NCBI GenBank assembly: GCA_016283935.1
Contig: JAEENX010000003.1
Location: forward strand, 1 to 63,955
DNA length: 63,955 nt
Direction of reading: 5' to 3'
DNA from: Bacilli bacterium
GTDB taxonomy: Bacteria; Bacillota_I; Bacilli_A; RF39; UBA660
Below are positions 35,531 through 41,712 of this stretch, in pieces. The notes below the pieces were generated by a model. The model had not been told where the DNA came from, ran no database searches, and saw nothing but the letters and a program-made list of their open reading frames with translations. The first letter of the stretch is position 1, and each line of letters opens with the position of its first letter. Made by a program: the position numbers and the translations under genes.

Positions 35531-35561
35531 TAAAAAAAGATAGTTTTTTTTACTATCTTTT
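35531..35561 (-). terminator. Terminator of the flavoprotein pair
   Basis: AAAGATAGT and ACTATCTTT around a T-rich loop, ending next to the stop codon at 35561, with T7 on the minus side. Confidence 0.85.
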
Positions 35562-37126
35562 TAAGCCTTATAAATATTAGCAAATTTTTCAAATGTTTTA
35601 ATTCCGTCTATTGCTGCAGTAGTTATACCTCCAGCATAACCGGCACCTTCACCAACTGGATAAATACCCTTTATATTAGATTCATTATTATCATCTCTAA
35701 TGATTGTAACAGGACTACTAGTTCTAGATTCTATTCCCATCATAACTGAATCAGGATTATCATACCCTTTTATTTTGTGTCCAAAATAAGGAATAGCTTC
35801 CTTAAGTGATTCATTTATATAATCAGGAAATAATTTATTTAAATCAGAAAATGTAGTATTTCCTTTTACTTCAGGAATAATGCTACCATAATTTATACTA
35901 GCTTCATTATTAATATAATCTTTATATAATTGAGTTGGTATAAAAGAATTACCCAATTCATATGCTTTACTTTCAAACATTCTTTGATATTCAATACCAT
36001 CAAATATATTATTGCCAAAGTCGTCTGGACTAACAGTAACTACTATAGCAGAATTACTAGAATTAGACATTCTATCATAGTTAGACATACCATTTATTGC
36101 TAATCTATTAACTTCAGATGATGCATTAACAACATATCCTCCAGGACACATACAAAATGAATAAACTCCTCTACCATTAGAAGCTTTATATGTAAGTTTA
36201 TAAGATGCTGTTCCTAATATATTAAAATCAGCATCTCCAAACATACTTTTATTAATATCTTCTCTATTATGGATTATTCTAATACCAACTGCAAATGGTT
36301 TAGCTTTCATATCTAATCCTTTATCATTCAACATATAGAATGTATCTCTAGCAGAATGCCCTATACATAAAAATAAATTATCACATTTAATTTCTTCATT
36401 ATCATTAACAATAATAGATTCTACTTTATTATCTTTAATATTGATATTCGATAATTTAGTACTATAACGAATAGTTCCACCCATATCTATTATTTTTTTT
36501 CTAATATTTTTTATAACAGTTCTTAAAATATCAGTTCCAATATGAGGTTTATAATCATATAAGATTTCTTCTGGAGCTCCATTTTCTACAAATATTTCAA
36601 ATACTTTCTTAAATCTAAAATTTTCGTCTTTAGTTAAAGTATTTAATTTACCATCTGAAAATGTTCCTGCTCCTCCTTCACCAAATTGAATATTTGATTC
36701 AGGATTTAGTTCATTAGTATTAAAGAAATCTTCTACATCTTTTACTCTTTCATCTATAGATTTACCTCTTTCTATTATAAGAGGCTTATATCCATATAAA
36801 CTAAGCATATAAGATAAAAATATACCTGCTGGTCCAAATCCAACAACGACAGGTCTATTAATCATTCCTTTAGTTCCCAATGATTCAAACTTATATTCTT
36901 CATTTCCTACTTTTTTAATAGAATCATTTATATATTTATCTTCATTATTAATACTAATATCTAAAGTATATACAAATAATATATTTGATTTATCTCTAGC
37001 ATCTATAGATCTTTTATTAATCTTATATTCTTTTATATCTTGTTTAAATATTTTACTTAATTTATTTTTAATAGCTTCATCTTGATTACATTTATAATTT
37101 ATTTTAATATTACTAACTCTAATCAT
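35561..37126 (-). CDS. FAD-dependent dehydrogenase (COG2509-type)
   Basis: 521 residues from ATG 37126 (MIRVSNIKINYKCNQDEAIK). A small N-terminal domain (1-85) is followed by the FAD fold with VGFGPAGIFLSYML, IIERGK and the family hallmark FGEGGAGTFSDGKLNT. CMCPGGYV and a C-terminal GEGAGYAGGITTAAIDG complete the flavin site. Physiological substrate unknown. It starts 8 bases inside the preceding flavoprotein gene with AAGAGGT as ribosome site, so the two are co-translated. A paralogue lies at 53880. Confidence 0.88.
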   Translation of the reverse strand: MIRVSNIKINYKCNQDEAIKNKLSKIFKQDIKEYKINKRSIDARDKSNILFVYTLDISINNEDKYINDSIKKVGNEEYKFESLGTKGMINRPVVVGFGPAGIFLSYMLSLYGYKPLIIERGKSIDERVKDVEDFFNTNELNPESNIQFGEGGAGTFSDGKLNTLTKDENFRFKKVFEIFVENGAPEEILYDYKPHIGTDILRTVIKNIRKKIIDMGGTIRYSTKLSNINIKDNKVESIIVNDNEEIKCDNLFLCIGHSARDTFYMLNDKGLDMKAKPFAVGIRIIHNREDINKSMFGDADFNILGTASYKLTYKASNGRGVYSFCMCPGGYVVNASSEVNRLAINGMSNYDRMSNSSNSAIVVTVSPDDFGNNIFDGIEYQRMFESKAYELGNSFIPTQLYKDYINNEASINYGSIIPEVKGNTTFSDLNKLFPDYINESLKEAIPYFGHKIKGYDNPDSVMMGIESRTSSPVTIIRDDNNESNIKGIYPVGEGAGYAGGITTAAIDGIKTFEKFANIYKA

Positions 37127-38279
37127 TATTAATACCTCTTGAAGCAATTAATGCCGAATATATTGCAAATGCTATATTATATCCACCACAATCACCATCA
37201 ACATCTAATACTTCACCAATGAAATATAATCCTGGAACTTTATTAGATTCAAAACTAGTATTAATATTACTTAAATCTACTCCACCTCTTGTAACTTGAG
37301 ATTGATTATAATTCATTGTACCAGTTACATATAATTTGAAGTTGGTTAATTCATTAATTAATATAACTTTTTCATCTTCAGTTAATTCCCTAAAAGTTTT
37401 ATTTCTAAGAATATCAATATTACCTAAAATAACATTTGCTAACTTATCATTAATCATTCTCTTTAATACAATATTAATAGTATTATTAGTATTATTTAAA
37501 TAAGTATAAATATTACTTATAGAAGGGACAAAATTAATACATACATATACATCATCTTTTTTATTTAAAGCAATAGATGCATATCTAGATATATTAAATA
37601 CACATATACCAGATATACCATATGAAGTTAATTGTATTTCTCCTTCTTCAGTATGTATTCTTTCTCCATTTACAAATATACTAATTTTACAATCAGATCT
37701 TATTCCATCCCAATCATATTTATCAGTTTCTAAAGGAACTAAAGATGGTAAAATTGTTACAATATCATGATTTAATTCTTTAGCAAACTTAATACCATCT
37801 GTACTTGCTCCTATTTGAGGATAACTTCCTAAACCTGATGAAACTATAACTTTATCATATTTATCTTTTCCATTTATGATAAATACATTATCTTTCTTTT
37901 CAATTTTAAATACTTTTTCATTTAATCTAATATCTACATTTTTCTTATTAGCTTCATATACTAATGCATTTTTAATAGTAGTAGCTTTATTAGATAAAGG
38001 ATAATAATAACCATTTTTTATTTTATAAGCTATTTCTAATTCATCCATGAAATTTAAAACTGTATCTTTTATATCATCTTTAATATAATCTCTTACATCT
38101 GAATTAGAATGATAATGATCTAAATTCATATCATCATTTAAAAAATTACATCTTCCATTTCCAGTTACAGTTAACTTTTTAAGTGGTTCAGAATTACTTT
38201 CATATATTGTAATATCACCATTTAATTTAAGTGATGCCACAAATCCTGATATTCCACCTCCAATAATAGCTATTTTCAT
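37119..38279 (-). CDS. BaiN/HI0933-family flavoprotein
   Basis: 386 residues. The N-terminal Rossmann motif is IAIIGGGISGFVASL. KKLTVTGNGRCNFLND is the hallmark of the HI0933/BaiN family, and the C-terminal part has NYNQSQVTRGGVDL and GLYFIGEVLDVDGDCGGYN. Members bind FAD; some reduce bile-acid intermediates, but most have no known substrate, and I do not assign one. It is coupled to the 35561 flavoprotein gene and 15 bases after the GH10-PHP gene. Confidence 0.9.
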   Translation of the reverse strand: MKIAIIGGGISGFVASLKLNGDITIYESNSEPLKKLTVTGNGRCNFLNDDMNLDHYHSNSDVRDYIKDDIKDTVLNFMDELEIAYKIKNGYYYPLSNKATTIKNALVYEANKKNVDIRLNEKVFKIEKKDNVFIINGKDKYDKVIVSSGLGSYPQIGASTDGIKFAKELNHDIVTILPSLVPLETDKYDWDGIRSDCKISIFVNGERIHTEEGEIQLTSYGISGICVFNISRYASIALNKKDDVYVCINFVPSISNIYTYLNNTNNTINIVLKRMINDKLANVILGNIDILRNKTFRELTEDEKVILINELTNFKLYVTGTMNYNQSQVTRGGVDLSNINTSFESNKVPGLYFIGEVLDVDGDCGGYNIAFAIYSALIASRGINND

Positions 38280-38294
38280 AGGTTATCTTCCTTT

Positions 38295-41200
38295 CTAATT
38301 CTTTAAATTAAATTTATGTATGTACTTCTTGATATTATCATCACTTCTCTTAATAATATCTTCATTATCATTAAATTCTTTTTCCATCAATTCTTTACAT
38401 ACAATTAAATAATCTTCTCTAGAATAGCATCCTAAAGCAGATGCATTAACAATAAAATGTTTTAGCTTATAAAGTAAACTAATTCTATTATTAGTTACAG
38501 TACCAAAACTTTCCATATATTTAAGATTATTATTAATTCTCTTTTCTCTTTCTTGATCAGATATAAAATGATCTTCAGCTACATTTAATAATTCTTCGAA
38601 TTTCTTTCGAGATTCGATTTTAGAAGTTCTTTTTGCTTCTTCAATTAAACCTTCTACTTTATCTAACATTTTCAAATCTAAATCAACTGCTGTATATTCC
38701 TTTGTTATTTTTTCTAATAATCTCATTAACATATATGTTTCATAAGAATATGAATTATATTCAGATAATAATAATCTTTGATCTAATTCAGGATTTCTAT
38801 ATCTAATAGGATTATAATCATCTGGAACAAATTGCATTTCACTTGTTCTTAAAATAGTATCTGCTCTTATGATATTTTCATTTATATCTTTAATAGACTT
38901 AGGTCTATGAGCATCACATCCGTATAAGAATCTAACATCATATTTTAATAATTCACTGTAAAAGCGTGGATGTGTAAATGAATGTTCACCATCATAGAAC
39001 TTATCATTTTCTACTCTAGTAATAGAATCAAGATTTATTTCTAGAGGAATATCTAATTCTTCACATTTTCTACCAATTATATCAGCTGCTTTTTCAGCAT
39101 TAGTCATGAATTCCATATGTGCTCTACTATCTTTGCAAGTATCACGATATATCATAAAATAATCAGGATGAGCAACAATATCAAATATACCTGAATCTAA
39201 AGCATCTACAATACTTTTTGCATATATAAGTGGATATTCAGGATTATCTATAGGATCGACTACTTCACCATCTACTATAACGTCATGTTGACCTAACATC
39301 ATATAATCAACTTGTTTTCTTAAATTAACTAAATGTAATCTTAAATCTTCTGAATATCCTGCTTCAAATCCAACATATACTTTAATATCAGGAAATTCTT
39401 TATTTAATTTCTTAATACTATTTATATATTCAGGTGTAGCATCATTACTTAATCTTTCATTTATTTCATCATATTCTATTCTAGGACTAGGAGCATGTTC
39501 AGTAAAACCAAATGATGTCATGCCCTTCTTTAATGCTTGAATAATATAATCTTGATCTTTAGCAGTAGAATCATTTTCACATCTATTAGTATGTGTATGA
39601 TAATTAAATCTTTGAATAGCAGGACCATTTATAAGATTAATATTAGAAACTAAAGAATCTCTTTTAGTATTAAATTCCATATCAAAATATCCACCATGAA
39701 TATTAGGAATTATTTTTTCTTTAAATCTAATCTTATTTTCATTAACTCTTCCAAGATTATGATCCATATCATCAGTTTTACTCCATATAGTAAAACTATC
39801 GATAATATCTCTATATTTATATAATACATCATATAATTCATTCATTTTAGCTTGTCTAATTTCTTCTAATTGAATTGGAACAACATACTTTTCTACTGGA
39901 TTAACATACATATCAAATTCAGTAATATTTATATGCATATTATTTTCTTTTAATTTATTTAATAATCTATCAATTTTACTAACATCAATTGATGTATCTA
40001 TATGTAATTGCTCACCTATAGAATCAATTATCTTAACATTATGTTCTTTTTCATATTTCTTGATTCTATCTAAAACAGACATGAATACATCATATTTTTT
40101 ATCATCAAATAAATTAACTTCATTATAAACAAAATTAGTATTAGGTAATATAGATTTAGCTTCAGATAATATATCTAATACATCTTCTAAAGATACATAA
40201 TTTAACCATCCACCTGTTAAATTATCGGAGTTATCTTTATATGTACCTCTTAAATCATATGGATTACCTACTTTACTTGCAAATCTATTAATTATTTCAT
40301 TTAAAGCATCAATAGATTCAACTGTAGATTCATATCCATTTTCTTTTATAAATGAACATAAACTTATTATATATTTTCTTAATAACTCTTTAATTTCTTC
40401 TTTGGATTTATTCTTATATCTATCAGGAAAATCCATATAAAAGAATATAGAATTTAATCTAACTCTCTTATCAAGACTTTTAGCAAATTTTAAAGCGCGT
40501 TCAAATCCATCAAATTTAAAAGTATTATTTAATAAAGTAACAGCATTATACTTAATAATATCATCTAAAGTAAAAGTATCAAATTCGCTTATTTTATTAT
40601 ACATACTTGTATATACATTCCATGAACTATCTTTAACACCAGACTTAGATATTACTCTTGCATTAAATATTTCAAATATCTTTTCTGCTTTTTCTTTATC
40701 AAATAATTCATATACTTTATTAACTATATCATCAACATTAGAACAATCAGTTATTATTTGAGTTAATTCTTTTATTTCTTCTTCATTTAAAATATGTTTC
40801 TTTAATAATAAATTAATCTTAGCTTTAGTTTTAATGCTAGGATTAATTAAGAAATCATATTTATGACTCAATGAATTAACATAGCATTCATATACATATT
40901 TTTTTGCTTCTTCTAAATCCTTATATGATTTTAAATAAGATTCATCTATATCTAAATTTATTATACTTTTTGAAAGATTTAATAATTCATCTAAAGAATT
41001 ACATGAAACAATAGATAATATATCTATATCTTGGTGATTTAATGTTATACCTGTAGTTTTAAAATTTATATCTAATAAATCTTTATTATTTTCATTTTCT
41101 TCTACTTTTTGAGTATTAAAGTACATTTCTCTATATTTTTTTGTTTTTTCATATACTTTTTTTCTCAATTCATCAATTGGCATTTCTGATTTTAAATATA

Positions 41201-41309
41201 AACCATACCAATTTTTAATTTCAGTTTCACTTATTATGATATCAATCTCTCTCATTTTATTTCTAAAATCATTTAAAATTCTAAGAGCTTCACCACTTTG
41301 AAGTAACAT
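38295..41309 (-). CDS. GH10-like glycosidase fused to a PHP phosphoesterase
   Basis: 1004 residues, no signal peptide. Residues about 1-240 are helical and unknown. About 250-545 match a GH10 (xylanase family) barrel: SIDALNEII with the acid/base glutamate (about 336), FVYNEVNLFDD, DSIGEQLHID, ITEFDMY with the nucleophile glutamate (about 466) and FTIWSKTDDMDHN. About 565-830 match a HisK-type PHP domain: NYHTHTNRCEND, FTEHAPSPR, GFEAGYSED, MLGQHDV, AHPDYF and GCDAHRP, which supply the metal ligands. The rest is helical. Both sites look intact, so a cytoplasmic bifunctional enzyme is inferred. It is co-directional with flavoprotein and NUDIX genes. Confidence 0.85.
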   Translation of the reverse strand: MLLQSGEALRILNDFRNKMREIDIIISETEIKNWYGLYLKSEMPIDELRKKVYEKTKKYREMYFNTQKVEENENNKDLLDINFKTTGITLNHQDIDILSIVSCNSLDELLNLSKSIINLDIDESYLKSYKDLEEAKKYVYECYVNSLSHKYDFLINPSIKTKAKINLLLKKHILNEEEIKELTQIITDCSNVDDIVNKVYELFDKEKAEKIFEIFNARVISKSGVKDSSWNVYTSMYNKISEFDTFTLDDIIKYNAVTLLNNTFKFDGFERALKFAKSLDKRVRLNSIFFYMDFPDRYKNKSKEEIKELLRKYIISLCSFIKENGYESTVESIDALNEIINRFASKVGNPYDLRGTYKDNSDNLTGGWLNYVSLEDVLDILSEAKSILPNTNFVYNEVNLFDDKKYDVFMSVLDRIKKYEKEHNVKIIDSIGEQLHIDTSIDVSKIDRLLNKLKENNMHINITEFDMYVNPVEKYVVPIQLEEIRQAKMNELYDVLYKYRDIIDSFTIWSKTDDMDHNLGRVNENKIRFKEKIIPNIHGGYFDMEFNTKRDSLVSNINLINGPAIQRFNYHTHTNRCENDSTAKDQDYIIQALKKGMTSFGFTEHAPSPRIEYDEINERLSNDATPEYINSIKKLNKEFPDIKVYVGFEAGYSEDLRLHLVNLRKQVDYMMLGQHDVIVDGEVVDPIDNPEYPLIYAKSIVDALDSGIFDIVAHPDYFMIYRDTCKDSRAHMEFMTNAEKAADIIGRKCEELDIPLEINLDSITRVENDKFYDGEHSFTHPRFYSELLKYDVRFLYGCDAHRPKSIKDINENIIRADTILRTSEMQFVPDDYNPIRYRNPELDQRLLLSEYNSYSYETYMLMRLLEKITKEYTAVDLDLKMLDKVEGLIEEAKRTSKIESRKKFEELLNVAEDHFISDQEREKRINNNLKYMESFGTVTNNRISLLYKLKHFIVNASALGCYSREDYLIVCKELMEKEFNDNEDIIKRSDDNIKKYIHKFNLKN

Positions 41310-41319
41310 ATAAGATCAC

Positions 41320-41712
41320 CTACTTTCTATTCTTTCCTTTCAAAACGCATTTAAAAATTTTCTTAATGTTATTATACGTTAATTTATCTAAAACTGCATC
41401 TTTATTAACCCATTCACATGAAATTATTTCATTTTCTTGGTTCTTTAAATCAAAAGATATAGCTTTAGCTATAAAGAATATAACTTCTTTTTTAGTATTA
41501 CCATTTATTTTATAGTTTATCTTATATTTCTTTTTACTTATTATTTCTATATCAATATTAGTTTCTTCTTTTACTTCTCTTATTGCTGTTTCTTCATCAG
41601 TTTCTCCTGGTTCCACATGACCTTTAGGGAAAGAAAAGAATCCTTGAAATTGTTCTATTATTAATACATCATCACCATTAAAAACAATGGCCCCACATGA
41701 TTTTTCTTTCAT
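41320..41712 (-). CDS. NUDIX hydrolase
   Basis: 130 residues. The Nudix box GHVEPGETDEETAIREVKEET is intact: Gly, the EE metal-binding pair and the REVKEE helix. It resembles the small bis(5'-nucleosyl)-tetraphosphatase/MutT-like group (starts MKEKSCGAIVFNGDDVLIIEQ). It cleaves X-linked nucleoside diphosphates; the precise substrate is unknown. It is 10 bases upstream of the GH10-PHP gene, so co-transcribed. GGTGAG precedes the ATG. Confidence 0.92.
   Translation of the reverse strand: MKEKSCGAIVFNGDDVLIIEQFQGFFSFPKGHVEPGETDEETAIREVKEETNIDIEIISKKKYKINYKINGNTKKEVIFFIAKAISFDLKNQENEIISCEWVNKDAVLDKLTYNNIKKIFKCVLKGKNRK

Follow-up and report, generated by a model that had tools for sequence, protein, structure and literature searches.

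GH10 is among the best studied glycosidase families, and its members are mainly known as xylanases. Both cytoplasmic GH10 enzymes and PHP domains fused to another enzyme are already known. IXT6 from Geobacillus stearothermophilus, which its structure entries identify as a xylanase (PDB:1n82, 2q8x), is a cytoplasmic GH10 protein, and so is Xyn10B (PMC4761950). (A preliminary description of the locus analyzed here had considered a cytoplasmic location to be unusual for GH10, which these two enzymes correct.) We found no description, in the literature that we searched, of a GH10-PHP pair, of the altered GH10 site that we describe below, or of the anchored modular family; the preliminary description had likewise known of no enzyme with this pair.

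The GH10-PHP fusion lies in a 63,955-nucleotide stretch of DNA from a Bacilli bacterium (contig JAEENX010000003.1). We use "the window" for the whole of this stretch. The features of the fusion gene and its neighbors are listed in Table 1.

Table 1. Features of the fusion gene and its neighbors, in window coordinates.
Feature	Coordinates	Strand	Comment
GH10-PHP fusion gene	38295..41309	-	1004 aa, ATG start
N-terminal helical segment, residues 1-78	41076..41309	-	AlphaFold2 model; found in fusions
GH10 (beta/alpha)8 barrel, residues 79-554	39648..41075	-	model aligned with GH10 xylanases
Helical insertion after barrel strand 1, residues ~92-240	40590..41036	-	model secondary structure
Remodeled glycone-subsite segment NSIFFYMD, residues 286-293	40431..40454	-	alignment
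GH10 acid/base E338	40296..40298	-	aligned with 3w24 NE motif
GH10 nucleophile E464	39918..39920	-	alignment
HisK-type PHP domain, residues 567-838	38796..39611	-	match to 2yxo; metal ligands
C-terminal helical region, residues 839-1004	38298..38795	-	homologous to anchor-ending region of relatives; anchor absent here
NUDIX hydrolase gene, upstream neighbor	41320..41712	-	synteny; judged outside the system
HI0933-like flavoprotein, downstream	37119..38279	-	core gene of the genus; judged outside the system
FAD-dependent protein, downstream	35561..37147	-	core gene of the genus; judged outside the system

Two catalytic domains in one protein

The fusion cannot be explained by an assembly error, as another species of the genus has a syntenic full-length copy that is 72% identical. 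A purine-rich stretch that resembles a ribosome site lies upstream of the start codon. As the preliminary description had proposed, a GH10 domain and a HisK-type PHP domain are present in a single open reading frame: Pfam's GH10 model matches residues 225-530 (E = 1.4e-21, 77.5 bits with a cut-off of 22.1), and PHP (PF02811) matches residues 570-758 (E = 3.4e-15, 57.2 bits with a cut-off of 26.4). We also obtained AlphaFold2 models for the full protein (29 aligned sequences, mean pLDDT 89.2) and for residues 562-1004, which cover the PHP domain and the C-terminal part (pLDDT 92.2). In these models, both domains form barrels, and the last 165 residues are helical. The protein lacks a signal peptide, again as proposed: the highest mean hydropathy of any 19-residue stretch among the first 60 residues is just 0.17, so there is no N-terminal hydrophobic segment.

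The modeled GH10 barrel resembles GH10 xylanases (Z = 30.0, rmsd 2.6 over 304 residues of 1ur1), and about 300 of its 476 residues can be aligned to GH10. Barrel strand 1 (residues 85-91) is not covered by the Pfam match, since it is separated from the next part of the barrel by an inserted helical stretch of about 150 residues. The acid/base glutamate is in an NE motif (E338 in DALNEII) and the nucleophile is in a TE(L/F)D motif (E464 in ITEFDM). E338 aligns with the NE motif of 3w24; the same motif reads NA in 3w25. Both glutamates were recognized in the preliminary description, but it placed them at about 336 and 466, 130 residues apart, and the actual spacing is 126 residues.

Membership in the PHP superfamily is supported by the PF02811 score, by the PHP barrel, and by the metal ligands, all of which are present (H571, H573, E604/H605, E649, H675, H714, D799, and H801). 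The HisK-type metal site is thus complete, as first described. The closest structure to the PHP and C-terminal model is the histidinol-phosphate phosphatase 2yxo (Z = 23.0), followed by HisK entries and then by the PHP domains of family X polymerases (Z of about 19).

Given these matches, the protein could be a histidinol phosphatase of histidine synthesis, but we consider this extremely improbable. It scores 48.6 bits against the HisJ family (TIGR01856), whose cut-off is 90.2 bits, and we did not find hisD in the genome, which is estimated to be 96.5% complete. (This completeness limits all of our results on absent genes. Of 14 control genomes, 13 had hisD.) GH43, xylose isomerase, and PTS_EIIC (PF02378, the one PTS permease family that we searched for) were not found in this genome either, and the positive controls for each were found. 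With all four missing, the bacterium is unlikely to make histidine, to use xylan, or to import sugars through the PTS. In particular, the lack of a PF02378 match makes an imported phosphorylated sugar, which the preliminary description had suggested as one possible substrate, unlikely.

The sugar site and the history of the fusion

In the classical numbering of xylanases, E43, N44, K47, H80, W84, and Q87 bind xylose in the -1 and -2 subsites. Of these six, just K47 has a retained equivalent, K253. In the alignment to 3w24, H80 is replaced by N286, W84 by F290, and Q87 by D293, and D249 and D250 are at the positions of E43 and N44. The nearby H85 is replaced by Y291. N286, F290, and D293 are fixed throughout the main clade of fusions. 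Because these changed residues are constant across proteins that are about 30% identical, the alignment suggests a new specificity for the glycone subsite rather than decay. Given this constant replacement of the sugar-binding residues, the GH10 part is a distinct subfamily and is probably not a xylanase.

The fusion might still degrade xylo-oligosaccharides inside the cell, with an unrelated phosphatase attached, since xylanases, among them the intracellular IXT6, are the structures that it matches best. We think that this is very unlikely: the equivalents of H80, W84, and Q87 are replaced, and neither GH43 nor xylose isomerase was found in the nearly complete genome.

Another idea is that the PHP domain is the sole working enzyme and that the GH10-like barrel is a glycan-binding module that targets the phosphatase. 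The replaced subsite residues would fit, as would certain relatives. One (L012) lacks the acid/base glutamate, and a divergent pair (L077/L080) lacks the GH10 site but retains most of the PHP ligands. Mere binding would not require any of the catalytic residues, however, and the main clade retains both glutamates as well as N337, Q434, and H436, so we view a binding role as unlikely. More broadly, every tabulated fusion other than L077/L080 retains N337, E338, Q434, H436, E464, and W509, and the PHP ligands are retained in nearly all of the fusions. The preliminary description had tied its reading to the retention of catalytic residues in homologs. This holds for nearly all full-length fusions, but not for L012, L077/L080, or L017/L018, which lost PHP ligands. 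In yet another relative (L076:7436-9505), the PHP domain is deleted after QDFNYHTHTYRSGHS, and GH10 and an anchor (see below) remain.

The pairing of GH10 and PHP is real and old. These two domains are the best-conserved parts of the protein, with mean pairwise identities of 44% (GH10) and 49% (PHP), versus 25-33% for the rest. Both domains are under purifying selection (dN/dS of about 0.35 in each, for the window protein versus its closest relative). Among 11 fusions, GH10 distances and PHP distances are highly correlated (r = 0.91; none of 5,000 permutations was as high), so most fusions descend together. There are hints that the two domains were joined independently a second time, in L011. 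Its PHP domain groups with stand-alone PHPs and apart from the other fusions (support 99/98), and a tree constrained to place all of the fusions' PHP domains, including L011's, in a single clade has an AU p value of 0.022. A caveat is that we chose this hypothesis after seeing the tree, so the second joining is tentative. Also, the fusion evolves faster than its neighbors: compared with the syntenic copy in the other species, it is 72% identical, and the neighboring genes are 84-89% identical.

Distribution, neighbors, and anchors

The fusion is an accessory gene. A single-sequence search found relatives of any part of it in 20 of 193 genomes of its own family, and a profile search found them in 54 of 385, or about 10-14% of the sampled genomes; its spread across genomes had been left as a question by the preliminary description. 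In our samples, we did not find the fusion outside of the family. In the class sample, the outside matches, among those listed, cover just the PHP part; in the phylum sample, the GH10 profile matched the own family and, weakly, one other family of the class. Genomes of this lineage are mostly about 0.8-1.8 Mb, and these bacteria presumably belong to the Bacilli order RF39 and live in the gut.

In the window, the fusion is in an apparent operon, in the order NUDIX, fusion, HI0933-like, and FAD-dependent. The preliminary description was right about this company, but it is uninformative about function. The two flavoprotein genes (35561-38279 in the window) are a conserved pair of the genus: they are adjacent at all eight of the other loci of the genus that we read, and the fusion is at just one of those eight (in the genome behind L002). 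Since the pair is core with or without the fusion, and fusions elsewhere have different neighbors, we rejected any prediction of function from the gene neighborhood.

Some of the other loci are unusual. At L025:2963-8744, the GH10 and PHP parts are split by an in-frame TGA, and they are preceded by WXG100-type genes and by a 386-aa protein whose C-terminal part looks like a peptidoglycan amidase. At L081:4885-9076, L082:2344-5153, and L083:3667-6264, relatives with GH10 and the anchor but no PHP are located close to relaxase-like and helix-turn-helix genes. A conserved protein of 204-205 aa follows each of these relatives (the copy in L081 has no Pfam match).

A hydrophobic C-terminal anchor is present in 11 of the 16 fusions that we examined. 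We did not find this hydrophobic segment in the window protein or in its closest relative. The helical C-terminal part and the anchor, which begins with G[F/Y], also occur on other proteins, with a nucleotidyltransferase-like domain plus PHP (L078) or with HD (L070 and L112). Because many loci were retrieved with the anchor profile itself, the count of anchor-bearing cores is biased. In L078:5574-7988 and L070:6406-9432, the cores are swapped on the common anchor. At L072:11001-12662 (minus strand), an ADP-ribosyltransferase (PF03496, E = 3.1e-18) ends in the anchor type of the fusions (NNRGFINGLVLACIIGFL...); it has the anchor alone in common with them, and it adjoins a fusion (L072:7162-10320). 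These anchors, the swapping of catalytic cores, and the repeated loss of active sites in side branches were missed by the preliminary description.

The protein might be a membrane-tethered modular effector or conflict protein that acts in competition or in defense against mobile elements, in which case GH10 and PHP would be two of many swappable cores on a shared helical N-terminal part and C-terminal anchor. The C-terminal module on other cores (L078, L070, and L112) and the anchor on the ADP-ribosyltransferase are consistent with this, as are the patchy distribution, the repeated loss of active sites, and the location of some members among recombinase or relaxase-like genes (L030 and L081-L083) or near WXG100 genes (L025). 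But the catalytic domains are conserved, not diversified, within the fusion clade, and the window's copy, which has neither the anchor nor neighbors of this kind, is part of an ordinary core operon. Also, the window protein has no match among PADLOC defense models (at E of 0.01) or PHROG profiles, and the fusion has no match in phages, plasmids, or viral contigs. (Five plasmid matches are weak, at 19-24% identity, and cover just the GH10 part; most are annotated as xylanases.) On balance, we consider an effector to be somewhat unlikely. In a broader and rather doubtful scheme, interchangeable cores (GH10, PHP, nucleotidyltransferase, HD, and ADP-ribosyltransferase) on a common C-terminal anchor would form a lineage-specific modular system. 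GH10 would then have become an intracellular enzyme that attacks phosphorylated glycans or glycosylated macromolecules, with a role in conflict or in control of the envelope.

Predicted activity and comparison with known enzymes

Our best reading, which we hold tentatively and with less than even confidence, is that the fusion is a two-site hydrolase that works close to the inner membrane and whose substrate is a phosphorylated glycan or glycolipid. It would be a cytoplasmic enzyme, encoded in the accessory genome, that combines a GH10-derived retaining glycosidase, its sugar site remodeled, with a HisK-type phosphomonoesterase that has a trinuclear metal site. We infer that both sites are active and share a substrate. 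Most likely, they would remove sugar and phosphate from the same kind of molecule, which could be a phosphorylated glycan, a glycolipid, or a nucleotide- or lipid-linked sugar, on or close to the cytoplasmic side of the membrane, where the C-terminal anchor would hold most relatives. Xylan and histidinol phosphate are unlikely substrates. The two modeled folds, the retained catalytic residues, the conservation and co-inheritance of the two domains, the purifying selection, the fixed changes in the subsite, the anchors in most of the fusions, and the hinted second joining all argue for a two-site hydrolase. On the other side, we found no functional neighbor, some relatives have just one domain or a dead one (L012, L017/L018, and L076), the fusion evolves faster than its neighbors, and the window protein lacks the anchor.

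A cytoplasmic GH10 subfamily that has a phosphatase partner and whose sugar site is altered in a constant way, kept in small-genome bacteria that lack the xylan-use markers that we tested, points to an unrecognized phosphorylated glycan, or else to an undescribed set of membrane-tethered enzymes.

Among known enzymes, the fusion is similar to IXT6 in its GH10 barrel (Z of about 28.6-28.9), its two catalytic glutamates, and its lack of a secretion signal. But the two are just 18% identical, and the fusion differs in its altered glycone subsite, in the helices inserted into its barrel, and in having a PHP domain attached. Like the HisK/HisJ phosphatases (2yxo, 4gyf, and 3dcp), it has a PHP barrel (Z of 20-23) with the HxH, E, H, H, D, and H ligands; unlike them, it is below the HisJ cut-off, it is encoded in a genome without hisD, and its PHP domain is embedded in a multidomain protein. 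Finally, DNA polymerase X and DNA polymerase III alpha also combine a metal-dependent PHP phosphoesterase with a second catalytic module, but there the partner of PHP is a polymerase, and here it is a glycosidase-type barrel.
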